Below the pieces are notes generated by a model, which made no database searches, was not told the DNA's origin, and saw only the letters and a program-made list of their open reading frames with translations. A DNA stretch of 64,000 nucleotides from Halomonas denitrificans (GTDB lineage Bacteria; Pseudomonadota; Gammaproteobacteria; Xanthomonadales; Wenzhouxiangellaceae), in assembly GCA_019800895.1 (NCBI GenBank), contig JAHVKF010000003.1, forward strand, positions 310,001 through 374,000, given 5' to 3'. Both the position numbers and the translations under genes were made by a program. Shown here piece after piece: positions 24,014 to 33,494 of this stretch. The first letter of the stretch is position 1. The number at the start of each line of letters is the position of its first letter.

Positions 24014-26722
24014 ATGAGCCGATCCGACTGGACCGACCTGTGGGAGCGATTCCACGCCGCCCTGGCGCTGCCGCCATCGCAGCGCGATGCGTGGCTGGAC
24101 GAGCACTGTACCGACCCTGCTCTTCGCGCCGAGCTGGCCGCGCTGCTCGAAGCCGCCGGGCGCACCGGTACGCCGCTGGACCGGGAGGGGGTCGCTGCTG
24201 CCGAGCCCCTGGCGCCCGGCACGCGAATGGGTCCGTGGCGGATCGTCGCTCCGCTCGGCAGGGGCGGCATGGGCGAGGTCTATCGGGTCGAGCGCGCCGA
24301 CGGGCGCTACGACAAGCAGGCGGCGTTGAAGCTGCTTGCCACAACGCTCCAAGGCGACGCGTTCCGGGCCCGCTTCGATCGCGAGCGCAGGATCCTGGCC
24401 GGGCTGGATCATCCCGGCATCGCCCGTCTCATCGACGCGGGACAGGCCGACGACGGGCGGCCCTGGCTGTTGATGGACCTGGTCGAGGGACAGCCGATCA
24501 CCCGGGCAGCCGCCGAATCCGCGTGGCCGCTGGAGCGGCGCCTGCGCGTGTTCGCACAGGCCTGCGACGCAGTCGCGTACGCCCATCGACGACTCATCGT
24601 GCACCGCGACCTCAAGCCGGCCAACCTCCTGGTCGACCCCTCCGGCCGGCCCCGGTTGCTGGACTTCGGCATCGCGCGGCTGCTGGAAGCCGGCGGTGAC
24701 GACGACCTGACGCAGGCCGGGCGGGGCGCCCCGAACACGCCCGGGTACGCCAGCCCCGAGCAACTGGTCCGCGACGACACGGGAACCGCCGTCGACGTCT
24801 ACGCCCTGGGCCTGCTGTTGCACGAACTCTGCACCGGCCAGGCGCCGTTCGGGCCGGACGGGGAAGCCGATGCGCTCGAGCGCCGGCGAAGGCCGCCGCG
24901 TCCCACCGCGGTCGACCCCGACCTTCCGCGGGAACTGGACTGGATCGTCGGCCGCGCATGCGCCTTCCGGGCCGAGGACCGCTACCCGGGCGTCGATGCG
25001 CTGATCGACGACATCCGGGCCGTTCTCGAAAACCGCCCCCCACGCGCGCGAGCCACCGGCCCGGTCTACCGGATCGGCAAGTTCGTCCGTCGCAACCGGG
25101 CTGCCGTGGCGGCGACGACGCTGGTCGCAGGCGTGATCGTGACGCTCGCCACCGGGATCGTGCAGGAAACCGCCCGAACCCGGGCCGCGTTGGCCGAAAG
25201 CGACCGGCAGCGCGAGCAGGCCGAACTGACCGCCCAGTTTCTCCGCGACCTGTTCGTGCAGTCCGATTCGACCCGGAACGAAGGCGCGGAACCGACCGCC
25301 GGCGAACTGCTCGCGCGGGGTCGCCAGCGGCTCGCGGAACGCGGAGACCTCGATCCGCGGTTGCACGCCGGTCTGCTGCGCACGCTGTCCGACGTGCATC
25401 GCAACCTGGGCGACTACCCGGCGGCGCTGGAACTCGCGAAGGAAAGTCTCGCCCGCCTCGAGCCGACGGACAGGATGGTGCACGCGGTCGATCGAGCCCG
25501 GGGATGGCTTCGCGTCGGCCGTGCACAGCTGGCCTCCGGGGACCCTGCGGCAGCACACGAAGCGCTCGGACGCGGTCTGGAACTGCTCTCTGCCGACGGC
25601 CCGTCCCCGCTCGTCGTGGATCTCCTGCACGCTCGCGGAGCGTCCGCGCAGCTGCGGGGCGAGCTGGACGAGGCCGGGCTCGATTTCGACGCCGCGATGG
25701 CTCGCCTCGACCGGTTGCCTTCGCCGGACCCGCGCCGCGCGGCCGAGAACCGGCTTCGCCGCGGCTCCTGGCACTGGATGAACGGGCGTCTCGGCGACGC
25801 CCTGGCGGCGTACGGCGAAGCGGTTCGCTGGCAGCGCGAGCGTAGCGACGGATCGAGCGCGGATCTGGCCACCGCGCTGGACGCCGAAGCCAGCGCACTG
25901 TTCGCGCTCGGCCGGATGGAGGAAGCGGAGGCCGCCTTCGCGCAGGTGGTGCGCCTGCGTCGCCGCGTCCTCGGCGCGGATCATCCCCTGACGGCCCGTT
26001 CTCTCAGCCACCTCGGCGGCGCGCGCTTCGAACTGGGTCGCATCGAGGATGCCCGGAGCACGCTGGGGGAGGCCCTCGCCATCCTCGAGCGGATCGACAT
26101 GGGCGACTCGCCGCAGGCCGCCGGCGTGCTGAACAATCTCGGGCTGGCCGAACGGGCCGCCGGGCGAACCGTCGAAGCCCGTTCGGCGTTCGAAGGGGCG
26201 CTGGCGATCAACCGCGGTACGCTGGGTCCGGACCACCTGAACGTGGCCAACAACCTGAACAACCTTGGCCTGGTCGCCGAAGACGAGCAGGCATGGGAGC
26301 AGGCGCTCGAGTATTACGACGACGCGGAACGCATCATCCGTGCGATCAAGGGCGACGGTCACCCGGACCGGGCGTTCCAGCAGACCAATCGGGGCCGGGT
26401 GCTGCTTGTTCTCGACCGCATCGAGGCGGCGCGGGTCGAGCTGGATGCAGCGCTCGAACTCCGCACGGGAGCGCTGGGTCCCGAGCATCCGCGCGTGGCC
26501 GAAACGCTGTTCTGGTCCGGCCTGGCCGAATGCCTGCGGGGGGCTGCCGAGGAGGGTTCGAATCGACTGCAGCGGGCGATCGAGGTGAGCCCGGCCGCGG
26601 AACCGAGGGTGCGCAGCGCGCTGGAAGCCTGCCGGGGGCGTGCGGACACCGGACCGGCAGTGCTGCAGTCCGGTGCCGAACGGAGACTGGTCCAGCGCCT
26701 GTTGGATTCGACAGCGCGCTGA
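24014..26722 (+). CDS. membrane Ser/Thr protein kinase with TPR sensor region
   Basis: A 902-residue Hanks-type kinase. The kinase domain (about 72-345) has the glycine loop PLGRGGMGEVYRVE, Lys106, the HRDLKPANLL loop (H197, D199), DFGIARLL and a SPEQL activation end. A transmembrane helix (AAVAATTLVAGVIVTLAT, about 363-385) follows. The C-terminal half, about 500 residues, is TPR-like with repeated pairs of helices, e.g. LGDYPAALELAKESLARLEP and NNLGLVAEDEQAWEQALEYYDDA, presumably outside the cell membrane. It is divergent from the ECF sigma gene, so kinase and sigma factor probably form one signalling unit. Confidence 0.88.
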   Translation: MSRSDWTDLWERFHAALALPPSQRDAWLDEHCTDPALRAELAALLEAAGRTGTPLDREGVAAAEPLAPGTRMGPWRIVAPLGRGGMGEVYRVERADGRYDKQAALKLLATTLQGDAFRARFDRERRILAGLDHPGIARLIDAGQADDGRPWLLMDLVEGQPITRAAAESAWPLERRLRVFAQACDAVAYAHRRLIVHRDLKPANLLVDPSGRPRLLDFGIARLLEAGGDDDLTQAGRGAPNTPGYASPEQLVRDDTGTAVDVYALGLLLHELCTGQAPFGPDGEADALERRRRPPRPTAVDPDLPRELDWIVGRACAFRAEDRYPGVDALIDDIRAVLENRPPRARATGPVYRIGKFVRRNRAAVAATTLVAGVIVTLATGIVQETARTRAALAESDRQREQAELTAQFLRDLFVQSDSTRNEGAEPTAGELLARGRQRLAERGDLDPRLHAGLLRTLSDVHRNLGDYPAALELAKESLARLEPTDRMVHAVDRARGWLRVGRAQLASGDPAAAHEALGRGLELLSADGPSPLVVDLLHARGASAQLRGELDEAGLDFDAAMARLDRLPSPDPRRAAENRLRRGSWHWMNGRLGDALAAYGEAVRWQRERSDGSSADLATALDAEASALFALGRMEEAEAAFAQVVRLRRRVLGADHPLTARSLSHLGGARFELGRIEDARSTLGEALAILERIDMGDSPQAAGVLNNLGLAERAAGRTVEARSAFEGALAINRGTLGPDHLNVANNLNNLGLVAEDEQAWEQALEYYDDAERIIRAIKGDGHPDRAFQQTNRGRVLLVLDRIEAARVELDAALELRTGALGPEHPRVAETLFWSGLAECLRGAAEEGSNRLQRAIEVSPAAEPRVRSALEACRGRADTGPAVLQSGAERRLVQRLLDSTAR

Positions 26723-27361: not shown

Positions 27362-27376
27362 CGATCGGGGTTGCGA

Positions 27377-29470
27377 TCAGTCCTGCTCGACTTCCTTCAT
27401 GCTGAGCCGGATCCGGCCCTGCTTGTCGACTTCCAGGACCTTGACCTTGACCTTCTGGCCCTCGGCGAGTTCGTCGGTGACGTTCTCGACGCGCTCGTTC
27501 GAGATCTGCGAGATGTGGACCAGACCGTCCTTGCCCGGCAGGATCTGCACGAAGGCGCCGAAGTTCATGATCTTCTGGACCGTGCCTTCGTAGATCTTGC
27601 CCACCTCGACATCGGCCGTGATCTGCTCGATCCGACGGCGCGCGTCGTCGGCGGCGTCCTTGTTGGCGGACGCGATCGTGATCGTGCCGTCGTCGGCGAT
27701 GTCGATGGTCGTGCCGGTCTCCTCGGTGATCTGGCGGATCGTCGAACCGCCCTTGCCGATCACTTCGCGGATCTTGTCCGGGTGGACCTTCATCGTGAAC
27801 AGGCGCGGTGCGTATTCGCTCATTTCCGAGCGCGGCTTGTCCAGCACCTTGTTCATCTCGCCGAGGATGTGCATGCGGCCGGCCTTGGCCTGCTCCAGCG
27901 CGGCATGCATGATCTCGCGGGTGATGCCATCGATCTTGATGTCCATCTGCAGCGCGGTGATGCCGGAATCGGAACCGGCCACCTTGAAGTCCATGTCGCC
28001 GAGATGGTCCTCGTCACCCAGGATGTCGGTCAGGACCGCGAACTTGTCGCCTTCCTTGATCAGGCCCATCGCGATGCCCGCGACCGGCGCCTTGACCGGC
28101 ACGCCGGCATCCATCAGGGCCAGCGAGGTGCCGCAGACCGAGGCCATGGAGCTCGAGCCGTTCGACTCGGTGATTTCCGAGACCACGCGCAGCACGTAGG
28201 GGAAGTCTTCCGGCTTCGGCACCACGGCCATCACGCCGCGTCGTGCCAGGCGGCCGTGACCGATCTCGCGACGCTTCGGTGCCAGCATGTGGTTGGTCTC
28301 GCCCACGCAGAAGGGCGGGAAGTTGTAGTGCAGCATGAAGGGGTCCTTGTATTCCCCTTCGATCGCGTCGATCAGCTGGGCATCGCGGCCCGTACCGAGG
28401 GTGGCGACGACCATCGCCTGCGTTTCACCGCGGGTGAAGATGGCCGAGCCGTGGGTGCGGGGCAGGGCGCCGACCTGCACGTCGATCGGACGGACCGTGG
28501 TCAGGTCGCGGCCGTCGATACGCGGCTTGCCTTCGATGATCTGGCCGCGCACGAATTCCTTTTCCATGGCATGGAAGGCGTCCTTCACGTCGCCTTCGGT
28601 CCAGACGGTTTCCTCGCCTTCCGGGCACAGCGCATCGACGACCTTCTTCTTCACTTCGCCGATGGCTTCGTGGCGCTGGGTCTTGTCCGTGTGCTGGTAG
28701 GCGGATTCGAGCCCGCTCATGCCGAGCTCGCGGACCTTCTCGGCCAGGCCTTCCGGCTTGGCCGGCGCCTGCCAGTCCCATTTCGGCTTGCCGGCTTCGG
28801 CGACCAGTTCGTTGATCGCCTTGATCGCGGTCTGCATCTGGTCGTGGCCGAAGGTCACGGCGCCGAGCATCTCGTCTTCACTCATCAGGTCGGCTTCCGA
28901 CTCGACCATCAGCACGGCCTTGTCGGTTCCCGCGACCACCAGGTCGAGGCGCGAGTTCTCGAGCTGCGAAGCGCTCGGGTTGAGCACGTAGTCGCCGTCG
29001 ACGAAGCCGACGCGGGCCGCACCGATCGGACCCTGGAACGGGGCGCCGGAGATGGCCAGGGCGGCCGAGGCGCCGATCAGGGCCGGGATGTCGCCATCGA
29101 CTTCCGGATTCAGCGACATGACCGTCGCGATGACCTGCACCTCGTTCAGGAAACCCTTCGGAAACAGCGGGCGGAGCGGACGGTCGATCAGACGCGACGT
29201 CAGCGTTTCCTTCTCCGTCGGTCGACCTTCACGCTTGAAGAAGCCGCCGGGAATCTTTCCCGCCGCGTAGAACTTCTCCTGGTAGTTGACCGTCAGCGGA
29301 AAGAAGGACTGACCGGGCTTGGCTTCGGGGCGGGCGACCGCGGTGACGAGGACGACGGTGCCGCCCATCGAAACGAGTACGGCGCCGGTCGCCTGGCGGG
29401 CGAGGTGGCCGGTTTCCAGGGTGACGGTGTGCTCACCGTACTGGAACGATTTGGTGACTTTGTTGAACAC
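27377..29470 (-). CDS. pnp: polyribonucleotide nucleotidyltransferase
   Basis: A 697-residue 3'-5' exoribonuclease of the RNA degradosome that phosphorolyses RNA to nucleoside diphosphates. Two RNase PH-like domains are visible ([21 protein letters not shown]; later [20 protein letters not shown] and [16 protein letters not shown]), then KH ([19 protein letters not shown]) and S1 ([21 protein letters not shown]). The GTG start at 29470 is preceded by GGAG eight bases away. It follows rpsO, as in most gammaproteobacteria, and ends in a strong terminator. Confidence 0.97.
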
Positions 29471-29554
29471 TGCGAATACTCCAGGGACGTAAGTAGGGTC
29501 GATCGTTGGAAAAGCGGTGGACGGAGCGCGTGCGCCGATTCCGGATACGACGAA

Positions 29555-29586
29555 GCATCGGCTGTTGAATGAACAACAACCGATGC
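29555..29586 (-). promoter_or_regulatory. hairpin between rpsO and pnp
   Basis: Minus-strand stem GCATCGG...GTTG / CAAC...CCGATGC with a small loop. In E. coli the corresponding interval carries the rpsO terminator and an RNase III processing hairpin that controls pnp. The position here agrees with such a site, though the T run for termination is poor. Confidence 0.5.
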
Positions 29587-29615
29587 CGTCGAATCACATG
29601 AGCCGGGAAGCGCGC

Positions 29616-29885
29616 TTAACGGCGGAGGCCGAGGCGCTGGACGATGTCGCGGTAGCGCTGGACGTCCTTGTTGCGGACGTAGTCGAGCAGCGAGCGACGC
29701 TGGTTGACCAGCTTGATCAGTCCGCGCCGCGAGTGGTGATCACCCTTGTGGTCCTGGAAGTGGCCCGTGAGGTGCTTGATGCGTGCGGTCAGCAACGCGA
29801 TCTGCACTTCCGGGGAACCGGTATCGCCGCTCGAGAGCTGGTATTCCGAAACGATCTGCTGTTTCTGTTCTGCGCTCAAAGACAT
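29616..29885 (-). CDS. rpsO: 30S ribosomal protein S15
   Basis: An 89-residue protein, the usual S15 length. It starts [16 protein letters not shown]; the conserved [14 protein letters not shown] and the 16S-binding [15 protein letters not shown] are present. GGAG lies about 11 bases upstream of the ATG. It begins the rpsO-pnp unit; a promoter at 30065-30094 and a leader of about 170 bases precede it. Confidence 0.97.
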
Positions 29886-29976
29886 TTCGTCTGAAACTCC
29901 ACGTGTGTACTTCGGTCCGGATCGTTCCGGGCCGGATGGTTTCGAGTGGCGACCGGGCTTTTCCAGAAAACCCCCT

Positions 29977-29993
29977 CCGAACCCGGGGTTCGG
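29977..29993 (-). promoter_or_regulatory. leader hairpin of rpsO
   Basis: CCGAACCC and GGGTTCGG form a short stem within the likely rpsO leader, followed on the minus strand by a G-rich then T-rich stretch. Leader structures that bind S15 autoregulate rpsO in several bacteria; whether this one does is not shown by the sequence. Confidence 0.35.
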
Positions 29994-30064
29994 CGGTCGG
30001 CGTCGGGCCGACCGGACAGGCGGGCTTTGTGCAAAAGCCACGATCACCACGAATCAAGCACGCC

Positions 30065-30094
30065 ATTATACGTGCTGTTTCGTGTCCGGGGCAA
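30065..30094 (-). promoter_or_regulatory. candidate sigma-70 promoter for rpsO-pnp
   Basis: On the minus strand TTGCCC and TATAAT are separated by 18 bases. Transcription would begin near 30058 and give a leader of about 170 bases before the rpsO start. Confidence 0.6.
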
Positions 30095-30129
30095 GAGGTT
30101 CGGCGACGATCCGCGACCGGTCGGTCCGC

Positions 30130-32466
30130 TCAGCGAGTGAGGCGCTGGCGGGCGCGGGCGAACAGGGATCCGTCGGGGAATCGGCCGTCGATGCGCTTGC
30201 CCGGATGCTGGCCGGCCAGCAGCTCGATCGCCTGGGCCACGCTGCCGACGGCGAAGACCTGGAACAGATCGTTACCGGAGGCCTGCACGATGCGCGGGCC
30301 CAGCATCAGTTCGTCGCGCTGCACCGCCGGAATCGCCACGCCGGCCCCGGATGGACCGGTGCCGCCGCCCGATCGACGGCCGCTGCGGTAGCAGCTCTCG
30401 AACAGCGACTCGATCCGCTCGTTCAGCTCGGTCACGGGCAGCACCCGGCCGGTCAGGTCGATGTCGCCGATCAGCGCGATGTCCTGGCGAAGCGGCGTGC
30501 GCGTGACCTGGCTGAGCAGGGCGACCAGCGCCGCCAGGGAAAACGTCTCGCCCGGCGCATCGGTGACCACCGAGCCGTCGGCCGCGATCAGCTCCAGCGC
30601 CGCATGCAGGCCGGGCTCGTTGTCGAGGCCCAGGAGGGAGCCGAGCAGGATTTCGAGCTGGTCCTCGGTGCCCGCGCGGTCCTGCAACCCGACCGGGACG
30701 CGGATCGACGCATGGCGGGCCGGCAGGCTCGCGCACTGGAGCCGGAGCACGCGCGCGGCGCCGCGTGTTCCGTCGTCGCGGCGGGCCAGCAGGTGGACCT
30801 GGCCGGGCATCGAGCGGGCGCCGGGGAACGCCGCGCTGCCCTGGGCTTCGTCGCCCTGCAGGCGCAGCAGGGGCACGGTGGCCTGTTCGATCGCGAACTC
30901 GACGTGGGCAGCCTCGACCTTCGAATCGCCGGCCTGGCGGGCCAGCCTGGCCGCGGCGCGGGCCCGGGCGAGCAGCCGGTCCAGGGAGGTCGACAATCCG
31001 CCGCGGCCGTCCAGCCGGGCGGCTTCTTCGACCAGGCGGGCCCGCGCACCGGCGTCGAAGGGCGGCAACTCCAGGCGCTCGCACTCGTTGACGAGCAGTG
31101 CGGACAGGGCGCGGACGTTGTGCTCGTCGCGCGAGACCCGGTCGGGCAGGTCGATGACCTGGTCCAGGCTGCGGGCGAGTTCGCCGTGCTCGCGGTTGAG
31201 CTGGCGCCAGGCGTCGAAAGAGCCGATCAGGACCAGCTGCAGCGAGACCGGCACCGCATCGGGTTTCAGCGAGGCTCCGGGTGCACGGCGGTCGATCGAT
31301 TCGATCGACAGTTCACCGGTGGTCAGCGTCCGCTGCAGCCGGTTCAGGCATTCCGGGTGCTCGAGCAGGGCGTCGGCATCGACGATCAACAGTCCGCCGT
31401 TGGCCTGCAGCAGGCTTCCGGCGCGCAGGCCCTGGAACGAGACGGCATCGGCCCGGCCGGCGTGCCAGACGGTGTCGATCGAACCGAACAGGTTGCGCGC
31501 GCTCGGGTGTTTCTCGATCACGACCGGGGCCGTGCCGTCGGGGTCGACGGCGATCAGCAGATTGGCGCCGTAGCGGCCTTCCAGGTCCAGGTCCGCCGCC
31601 CGGCCACCGCCGACGCCGTGTTCGAGCACGTCCTCGAGGATCGCCTCGAGATGGCGGGCGACCTCGGGGTGGCCGATCTGGTCGTCGACGCTGCGCATCA
31701 GGCCGGCCAGCAGGCGGCGCGCTTCGCTCTGCACCAGGCGGTTGGCCAGGTCCTGGCTGCGACGCCAGATCTCGTTCACCCGGGTCGTCAGGCGGGCCAG
31801 TTCGTCCTGCTCGTCCCGGATGATCTCGCGGATCTTGCGGTATTCCTCGCGGTCGACCTGGCCCTTGGAGACCAGGTTGGCCAGGTCGTCCTGGGAAATC
31901 ACCCGGCCCGTCTGCTTGACGTGGACGGACAGGCGCACCAGGCGGCCGACCTCCTCGCGCACCAGGACCAGCCCGTCCGGGCGGAGCCGCTCGTCCATCG
32001 GGTCGGTGATCTTGCGCATCTCGGCGTCGGCACGATCGTGCAGGGCCTGCAGCCGGTTGCGGATCGGCCGGGCCTCGAGCGCGGGGTCCAGCTGGTCCCG
32101 GATGAAGCGGATGACCGATCGCAGTTCGGCACGGACCTTGCGGCCCATGCCGGCCGGCAGGCGGAGCAGGCGGGGCTGGTGCGGGTGGTCGAAGTTGTAC
32201 ACGAACACCAGGTCGTTGCCGGCCGCCGGCGGGGGCGTCCGGTTCGCCAGGGCGCGTTCCACCAACCGGCGTCGCCCGGTGCCCGGGCGGCCGCGCAGGA
32301 ACAGGTGGGGTTGGTCGCCGTCGTTGCCGCGCAGCGCGTTGCCGAGCGACTCGATCGCGTCTTCGCTGCCGAGCGTGGCGACGGGCGCTTCGCCAGCGGG
32401 CGCATCGAGCAGGTCGGGACGGACGTTCCAGCGAAGCTGGTTGGCCGAGAGTCTGGTGATTGCCAT
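30130..32466 (-). CDS. Lon-like AAA protease homologue with altered catalytic residues
   Basis: A 778-residue LonB/AAA_32-type protein. A P-loop-like LRGRPGTGRRRLV lies at about residues 57-70, with Arg65 in place of the usual Walker Lys. GGLLIVDADALLE looks like Walker B. A helical insertion follows the nucleotide region, and the C-terminal Lon domain reads APGETFSLAALVALLSQVT then LRQDIALIGDIDLTGRVLPV and TELNERIES. In Lon the catalytic Ser and Lys are 43 residues apart; here those positions, 43 apart, are Thr641 and Arg684. So the protease is probably inactive or unusual. It follows rpsO by 244 bp upstream on the same strand. Chaperone-like or regulatory use is possible. Confidence 0.8.
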   Translation of the reverse strand: MAITRLSANQLRWNVRPDLLDAPAGEAPVATLGSEDAIESLGNALRGNDGDQPHLFLRGRPGTGRRRLVERALANRTPPPAAGNDLVFVYNFDHPHQPRLLRLPAGMGRKVRAELRSVIRFIRDQLDPALEARPIRNRLQALHDRADAEMRKITDPMDERLRPDGLVLVREEVGRLVRLSVHVKQTGRVISQDDLANLVSKGQVDREEYRKIREIIRDEQDELARLTTRVNEIWRRSQDLANRLVQSEARRLLAGLMRSVDDQIGHPEVARHLEAILEDVLEHGVGGGRAADLDLEGRYGANLLIAVDPDGTAPVVIEKHPSARNLFGSIDTVWHAGRADAVSFQGLRAGSLLQANGGLLIVDADALLEHPECLNRLQRTLTTGELSIESIDRRAPGASLKPDAVPVSLQLVLIGSFDAWRQLNREHGELARSLDQVIDLPDRVSRDEHNVRALSALLVNECERLELPPFDAGARARLVEEAARLDGRGGLSTSLDRLLARARAAARLARQAGDSKVEAAHVEFAIEQATVPLLRLQGDEAQGSAAFPGARSMPGQVHLLARRDDGTRGAARVLRLQCASLPARHASIRVPVGLQDRAGTEDQLEILLGSLLGLDNEPGLHAALELIAADGSVVTDAPGETFSLAALVALLSQVTRTPLRQDIALIGDIDLTGRVLPVTELNERIESLFESCYRSGRRSGGGTGPSGAGVAIPAVQRDELMLGPRIVQASGNDLFQVFAVGSVAQAIELLAGQHPGKRIDGRFPDGSLFARARQRLTR

Positions 32467-32555
32467 GGCCCCCCGGCTCCTGTTCGTTGTCTGGCCGCCA
32501 TTCTAGCGGCGAACCGGGACGATGCCCAGCCGCAGGGAGATTCGCGGTCGCGGGC

Positions 32556-33494
32556 TCAGCCGTCGAGGCGCGCCCGGGCCAGCCGTTCCGTGTAGCTGGT
32601 CCAGGCCTCGGCCACGGTACAGGGGTTCTCGAGCATCGGCAGATGGCCGGTGTCGGGCAGCAGCAGCGTCTCGGCCGACGGCATCCGTTCGGCGATGGCC
32701 GCGGCGCCGGCCGGATTCAGGACCTGATCGGAGCGACCCCAGACGACCAGCGCGGGCACCTGCAGGCCGTCGACGATGCGCTCGAGGGGTTCGGAGTCGA
32801 AGCGGATGGCGTCGAACGCGCGCTGGTGGTCGACGGCTCGACCGGCCGCCCGCGAGGCCAGGAAACGGGCCAGCGGCCCTGGAATCCAGGGCGGGTGCAC
32901 GAAGCAGTAGTCGATCAGGCGATGAAAATCCGCCAGGTGGCGGATGATCAGCGGATTGTGCCGTTCCTCGGAGATTTCCTGGAACAACGGTGAATGCGGT
33001 ACACCCTCCACGCCGCCGGGCGCCAGTAGCCACAGCGCGCGAACGCGGTCGGGCACGCGCCGGGCCACCTCGGCCGCGATGTACCCGCCCATCGAGCTTC
33101 CACCCAGGTAGCAGCGCTGGATGTCCGCGGCATCCATCCACTCGATGACCCGGTCGGCCTGGGCGCTGATCCGGTAGTCGAGCGCGCCGTCGACACGGGT
33201 ATCTCCGAACCCGGGGAGGTCGGGCGCGAGCACGCGGAAGTGACGGGACAGGTAGCGGGCGACCCGGGTGAAATGGTCGGCATCGGCATTGAACCCATGG
33301 AGGAGTACCAGCGGTTCGCCGTGCCCGCCCTCCAGCGCGTGCCAGTCGATCGCTCCGGTCCGCAGGCGGCTCGACTTCAGGCGCCCGTGCCGCCTGTCAA
33401 GGGCACGGAAGATCCGCGCGACCGGTGACGGCCACACCCGCCACAGAACAAGGGCGAGCAGCAGCGCGAGTCCCAGCGTCAGCAACGGCGTCAT
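32556..33494 (-). CDS. membrane-anchored alpha/beta hydrolase (lipase-like)
   Basis: A 312-residue protein with an N-terminal hydrophobic anchor (LLTLGLALLLALVLWRVW), then an alpha/beta hydrolase domain. Seen: oxyanion VLLHGFNADADHF, nucleophile elbow LGGSSMGGYIAAE, Asp in VVWGRSDQVLNP and His in LPDTGHLPMLEN. The three catalytic elements are complete. Substrate not known; esterase or lipase action is the usual guess for this layout. It stands between the Lon homologue and a gene-free 231 bp. Confidence 0.83.
   Translation of the reverse strand: MTPLLTLGLALLLALVLWRVWPSPVARIFRALDRRHGRLKSSRLRTGAIDWHALEGGHGEPLVLLHGFNADADHFTRVARYLSRHFRVLAPDLPGFGDTRVDGALDYRISAQADRVIEWMDAADIQRCYLGGSSMGGYIAAEVARRVPDRVRALWLLAPGGVEGVPHSPLFQEISEERHNPLIIRHLADFHRLIDYCFVHPPWIPGPLARFLASRAAGRAVDHQRAFDAIRFDSEPLERIVDGLQVPALVVWGRSDQVLNPAGAAAIAERMPSAETLLLPDTGHLPMLENPCTVAEAWTSYTERLARARLDG

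Follow-up and report, generated by a model that had tools for sequence, protein, structure and literature searches.

The window, a 64,000-nucleotide stretch of Halomonas denitrificans DNA, encodes a LonC-type (AAA_32) protein, here called pseudo-LonC, that carries Thr and Arg in place of the catalytic Ser and Lys and is a member of the LonC family by descent and fold, not a Lon peptidase. Judged from sequence comparisons, pseudo-LonC is very likely maintained in a non-proteolytic role, and not as a Thr protease. The first-pass annotation had proposed a maintained protein with a changed role, and for a non-proteolytic role this is borne out by the loss of Lys throughout the clade, by intact open reading frames (ORFs), by dN/dS ratios below 1 and by constraint that has moved to the helical/AAA half of the protein. 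The gene, its parts and its immediate neighbors are as follows (window coordinates).

30130..32466, minus strand: pseudo-LonC gene (LonC/AAA_32 family, 778 aa), from translation, Pfam and predicted structure
32477..32481, minus strand: Shine-Dalgarno-like AGGAG, 10 nt before the ATG, read from the sequence
32269..32292, minus strand: degenerate P-loop, G59-RPGTG-R65-R66, with Arg at the Walker A Lys, from translation and alignments
31597..32136, minus strand: helical domain, residues 111-290, from the conservation comparison
31375..31392, minus strand: Walker B-like LLIVDA, residues 359-364, without the catalytic Glu, from translation and alignments
30202..30816, minus strand: Lon protease-fold domain, residues 551-755, with its active-site shell lost, from conservation, dN/dS and the structure model
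30544..30546, minus strand: Thr641 codon (catalytic Ser position), from phmmer and MAFFT alignments
30415..30417, minus strand: Arg684 codon (catalytic Lys position), from phmmer and MAFFT alignments
32556..33494, minus strand: alpha/beta hydrolase, immediately upstream, from Pfam Abhydrolase_1 and synteny
27377..29885, minus strand: rpsO and pnp, downstream, from syntenic context

The pseudo-LonC ORF is a single uninterrupted frame of 778 aa, in which translation places GRPGTGRR at residues 59-66, GETFS at 639-643 and NERIES at 682-687. Its Pfam matches are AAA_32 (91.8 bits, cut-off 21), LonC_helical (45.3 bits, cut-off 24), LonB_AAA-LID and a short Lon_C, all on one chain; none of the NCBIfam Lon equivalogs came near its cut-off (lon_rel, 70 bits against 516.6). 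Among solved proteins, phmmer places the ATP-independent LonC protease TTC1975/MtaLonC nearest (E 7e-22); an S582A mutant of it is also in the PDB. In this alignment GDSA of MtaLonC pairs with GETF and NAKVEG with NERIES, which puts Thr641 at the Ser and Arg684 at the Lys, and a MAFFT alignment with relatives and Escherichia coli YcbZ (GDSAS ... NEKIE) gives the same placement. The initial assignment of these two residues, 43 apart, to the catalytic positions is thereby confirmed, and measured by what defines an S16 Lon peptidase the protein has neither the catalytic Ser nor the catalytic Lys. Nor does it have the intact Walker A and Walker B of the ATP-dependent Lon proteases (LonA/LonB): its LonC-type ATPase motifs are degenerate, with GRR for GK[ST] and VDA for DE, and it is non-hydrolytic by prediction. 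In the same genome, which is 99.98% complete, another gene encodes a canonical Lon that retains GPPGVGKT (Walker A), DGPSAG and GGLKEK; no second AAA_32 gene was found there.

The fold is predicted to be intact. An AlphaFold2 monomer built on a 20-row alignment has a pLDDT of 84 and matches MtaLonC (4fw9) over its full length (Z 33.4, rmsd 3.4, 581 residues, 25% identity), followed by TonLonB (Z 22.3) and then by Lon domains, RadA and BrxL. The earlier statement that the fold is otherwise intact holds for the backbone, but the active-site shell is mostly lost: the window protein lacks most of its family-invariant residues, namely (family letters) F626, E627, Q628, Y630, D640, A642, E646, T666, Q671, G679 and G680. 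Other residues invariant in dyad-bearing proteins, Q661, L720, A729, F735 and G756, are retained in the dyad-less ones and are probably structural.

Relatives were gathered from the same family (43 genomes), the order (398), the class (369) and a named genome collection (79 loci, some from genomes also in the order search). The dyad is absent from all 24 orthologues, every one within Wenzhouxiangellaceae. At the Lys position, which is readily aligned through NERIE, 21 have Arg and one each Ser, Gln and Cys, with Lys in none; at the Ser position, where indels near column 641 make single letters less certain than those of the Lys column, there are nine Ala, six Ser, five Gly, two Thr, one Asp and one Glu. 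The replacements are thus not conservative at the Ser column, as they had been described, but drift. The loss of the dyad is clade-wide among the orthologues, but the Thr/Arg pair itself is not: the nearest orthologue, that of XN79A (G002; 68% identical), has Gly/Arg, and the second protein with Thr at the Ser position (L028 1486-3774, from G012) has Cys at the Lys position and sits on a long branch. A sequencing error or a lone variant was rejected, since the 23 further orthologues, which come from independent genomes and metagenome-assembled genomes (MAGs), agree on the loss. Ser and Lys are both present in the 54 other family proteins of the alignment and in E. coli YcbZ, and in 29 of 29 proteins of the class sample. 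The 18 dyad-less loci of the named collection are labeled Wenzhouxiangella, Wenzhouxiangellaceae, Lysobacterales/Lysobacteraceae or gammaproteobacterial MAGs; 59 of its 61 loci from outside Wenzhouxiangellaceae (Clostridia, Synergistaceae, Armatimonadetes, Marinicella and others) have Ser/Lys and the other two are incomplete there. All sampled LonC-type relatives outside the dyad-less clade in which both positions can be read are therefore Ser/Lys. A search of viral contigs found no relative, and a viral origin was rejected.

In a tree built on residues 1-535 only, with the protease columns left out, the 23 dyad-less rows form one clade (bootstrap 100, SH-aLRT 99), nested in a Ser/Lys clade (clade A) beside G010 of the same family (94/97), so that the state changes once; the full-length tree likewise has one state change. 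The exact placement of the long-branched L028_G012 is less sure. YcbZ-like paralogues, always Ser/Lys, form a separate clade (clade B) and occur in many genomes. The neighbors common to dyad-less orthologues are the alpha/beta hydrolase (upstream, same strand), PhyH, a Vut_1 transporter and EamA, with pnp, rpsO and DUF6165 nearby; the hydrolase and EamA also adjoin Ser/Lys orthologues, for example L069 and L094. Synteny and tree together indicate a loss in place, and horizontal replacement was rejected on these grounds: as the trees read, the dyad disappeared a single time within Wenzhouxiangellaceae, from a gene that stayed where it was.

Several other features of the neighborhood were recorded. 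The alpha/beta hydrolase usually lies next to the LonC gene in clade A, on its upstream side, whether or not the dyad is kept, and a functional link between the two is possible. In G001 an open frame of 1116 aa had hinted at a fusion of hydrolase and LonC, but that frame is a shadow of the hydrolase gene, and the fusion was rejected. In loci from other genera of the family (L051, L053, L081, L096-L098 and L101) the pnp-rpsO block has the opposite orientation to that in the window genus, and a few further genes separate it from the LonC gene. Within the window, plus-strand ORFs at 27371-29572 (733 aa) and 29746-32595 (949 aa) run opposite to pnp and pseudo-LonC and have the look of shadow frames in GC-rich DNA rather than of genes, and 24014-26722 (plus strand) encodes a Ser/Thr protein kinase of 902 aa with a long TPR tail.

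The P-loop has a different history from the dyad. Arg65 does stand at the P-loop Lys position (GRPGTGRR), as first annotated, but it does not belong to the same change. Arg occupies the Walker A Lys position in nearly all dyad-intact clade-A proteins (GTGRM, GTGRL), GK being kept in many clade-B-like gammaproteobacterial and Firmicutes members, and across the family the acid pair of Walker B has degenerated (LDA, LQA), with no Glu. MtaLonC, whose Walker B is similar, binds nucleotide without ATPase activity, and its hexamer assembles without nucleotide (PMC3391209). Because Arg65 is present in relatives with Ser and Lys intact, the P-loop change predates the loss of proteolysis and is unrelated to it, and a single event for both was rejected. 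On this comparison the ATPase motifs were already degenerate before the dyad was lost.

Loss of the dyad was accompanied by a shift in which part of the protein is conserved. Among the Ser/Lys proteins conservation is highest in the protease domain, with pairwise identity of 0.70-0.78 in clade A; in the dyad-less clade this domain is among the least conserved (0.25 for residues 551-635, 0.45 for 636-755), whereas the helical domain (111-290), in relative terms the best conserved part there, reaches 0.53 versus 0.31 and 0.47 in groups that keep the dyad; since clade A spans several families and the dyad-less clade a single one, these absolute identities are not directly comparable, and ratios between domains are the fair measure. 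The ratio of the divergence in residues 560-755 to that in 1-535 is 1.30-1.50 in the dyad-less clade versus 0.40 and 0.58-0.59 in the dyad-bearing groups. In the helical domain, P134, I135, R136, R138, R151, R170, R178, Q203, W234, E248 and R251 are invariant or nearly so in the dyad-less clade and uncommon in dyad-bearing clade A. By these ratios, constraint moved from the protease domain to the helical domain after the dyad was lost.

Over residues 1-755 the dN/dS ratio (Nei-Gojobori) is 0.05-0.48 in dyad-less pairs, values likelier too high than too low because dS is probably underestimated at a GC3 of about 0.9. The N half has 0.03-0.37, and the protease domain 0.11-0.34 in dyad-less pairs other than window/XN79A. 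In all dyad-less pairs but L006/L007 the ratio of the protease domain is about 1.5-3.5 times that of the N half, while in dyad-bearing pairs it ranges from below the N half to about twice. Between the window protein and XN79A it is 0.60-0.95, with 0.95 for residues 536-635; set against pnp (0.14) and against the hydrolase and EamA (0.21 each), pseudo-LonC is the faster-evolving protein in this pair. Taken over the clade, the ratios are those of a protein that is under purifying selection, strongest in its N-terminal helical/AAA half.

AAA_32 is absent from seven genomes of the family, several of them near-complete (G006, G008, G009, G013, G017, G041 and the congener G005). In G005 the deletion is clean (L218 2943-3470): rpsO and the hydrolase, which stays, are 527 nt apart, and tblastn detected no trace of a pseudo-LonC remnant between them. 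Because near-complete genomes, including that of a congener, are without the gene, it is not essential, and pseudo-LonC is dispensable.

The explanation that best accounts for these data is that a vertically inherited LonC-type (AAA_32) protein of Wenzhouxiangellaceae lost its Ser-Lys dyad once and has probably been kept as a pseudoenzyme. The LonC-like ring would still form, as MtaLonC assembles without ATP, and would serve as a holdase, an adaptor or a sequestering ring: it would bind its client at the helical domain and the chamber entrance, but would neither cut it nor use ATP to unfold it. We give a ring that binds through the helical domain a little less than an even chance. The more specific proposal that a LonC ring dead both as ATPase and as protease has been re-employed, with the helical domain as its functional center and a new Arg-rich surface binding a specific client, protein or nucleic acid, is put forward tentatively; the new invariant residues are mostly basic, and on this ground one may speculate that the partner is acidic or a nucleic acid. 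Against a maintained pseudoenzyme, the dN/dS near 1 of residues 536-635 in the window/XN79A pair fits a freely drifting domain rather than a scaffold. That pair also speaks for a gene in decay, in which the ORF would be a relic of little function, drifting and being deleted after proteolysis was lost: the protease-domain ratios of 0.60-0.95, the seven family genomes without AAA_32 with the clean loss in G005, favor this reading, and a neutral stop-codon simulation of the protease domain alone, in which 57% of runs stayed free of stops (the codons are GC-rich), is compatible with drift of that one domain in that one pair. Decay is nevertheless improbable, as full-length frames persist in about 20 orthologues that have diverged to about 30% identity, their dN/dS stays at 0.03-0.37 in the N half and 0.11-0.34 in the protease domain of the other dyad-less pairs, and new invariant residues arose in the helical domain after the loss.

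Continued catalysis fares worse. A Thr-based Lon protease, offered in the first-pass annotation, would use Thr641 as nucleophile and Arg684 in the place of Lys as base or electrostatic aid; both residues lie at exactly the right positions and Thr is a possible nucleophile, but Arg is a poor general base, the sister protein has Gly641, the Ser column is not conserved among the 24 orthologues, Lys occurs in none, and D640, A642, E646, F626-E627-Q628, Y630 and G679-G680 are not kept. With Thr confined to the window protein and to the remote orthologue on the long branch, we regard this mechanism as extremely improbable. An enzyme of another kind, either an ATPase with the P-loop Arg or a protein whose former cleft has acquired another active site, could draw on the invariance of Gly59 and Arg65 in the dyad-less clade, yet is highly unlikely given a Walker B without Glu family-wide, variable cleft residues and a Meiothermus LonC without ATPase activity (PMC3391209). 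Pseudo-LonC might also be a regulatory subunit in mixed rings with the proteolytic clade-B (YcbZ-like) paralogue. Inactive subunits do enter some Clp and proteasome rings, and many dyad-less genomes of genus g7, as well as G003, also encode a Ser/Lys paralogue. The window genome, G002, G036 and G033, however, have no second LonC gene, so an active partner is not required; an obligate partnership with the paralogue was rejected, and a role in mixed rings seems very remote.

Non-peptidase Lon homologues are known, and MEROPS S16 includes them (PMC9569914); here the loss maps to a single branch, and orthologues with Ser/Lys occur in the same gene neighborhood. A dyad-less clade that keeps the whole chain is a clean natural experiment on the roles of the LonC ring besides cutting. 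The function of LonC and YcbZ is poorly understood, and the conserved part of pseudo-LonC points to the helical domain; a re-employed dead ring, if true, would be a binding-only LonC. In the literature searched we saw neither a dyad-less LonC clade nor a binding-only LonC described, and nothing on this gene in work on Lon pseudoproteases or Wenzhouxiangella proteases.

Among characterized systems, MtaLonC/TTC1975 (LonC subfamily; MEROPS S16.007; PDB 4fw9, 8k8v) is like pseudo-LonC in domain order, full-length fold and degenerate ATPase motifs. The difference is that MtaLonC keeps the dyad (Ser582) and cuts unfolded proteins, whereas pseudo-LonC has Thr/Arg and has lost the shell. The clade-A Ser/Lys orthologues of the order (for example L022, L055, L069 and Marinicella L071/L125) share the P-loop Arg and, in several cases, the hydrolase neighbor; unlike pseudo-LonC, they keep GDSAS ... 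NEKIE, and conservation peaks in their protease domain. E. coli YcbZ and the clade-B paralogues have the same AAA_32/Lon_C architecture with the dyad intact, in a separate paralogous clade, and YcbZ itself (L034 2540-4300, E. coli ycbZ) is Ser/Lys, lacks a recognizable P-loop and falls short of the window protein in length by about 190 residues. In RadA/Sms, ComM and the C-terminal domain of BrxL, the Lon fold serves as a non-proteolytic structural part (PMC11612176, PMC10164562); those Lon-like domains sit on working RecA/AAA+ motors that act on DNA, whereas the motor of pseudo-LonC is degenerate.
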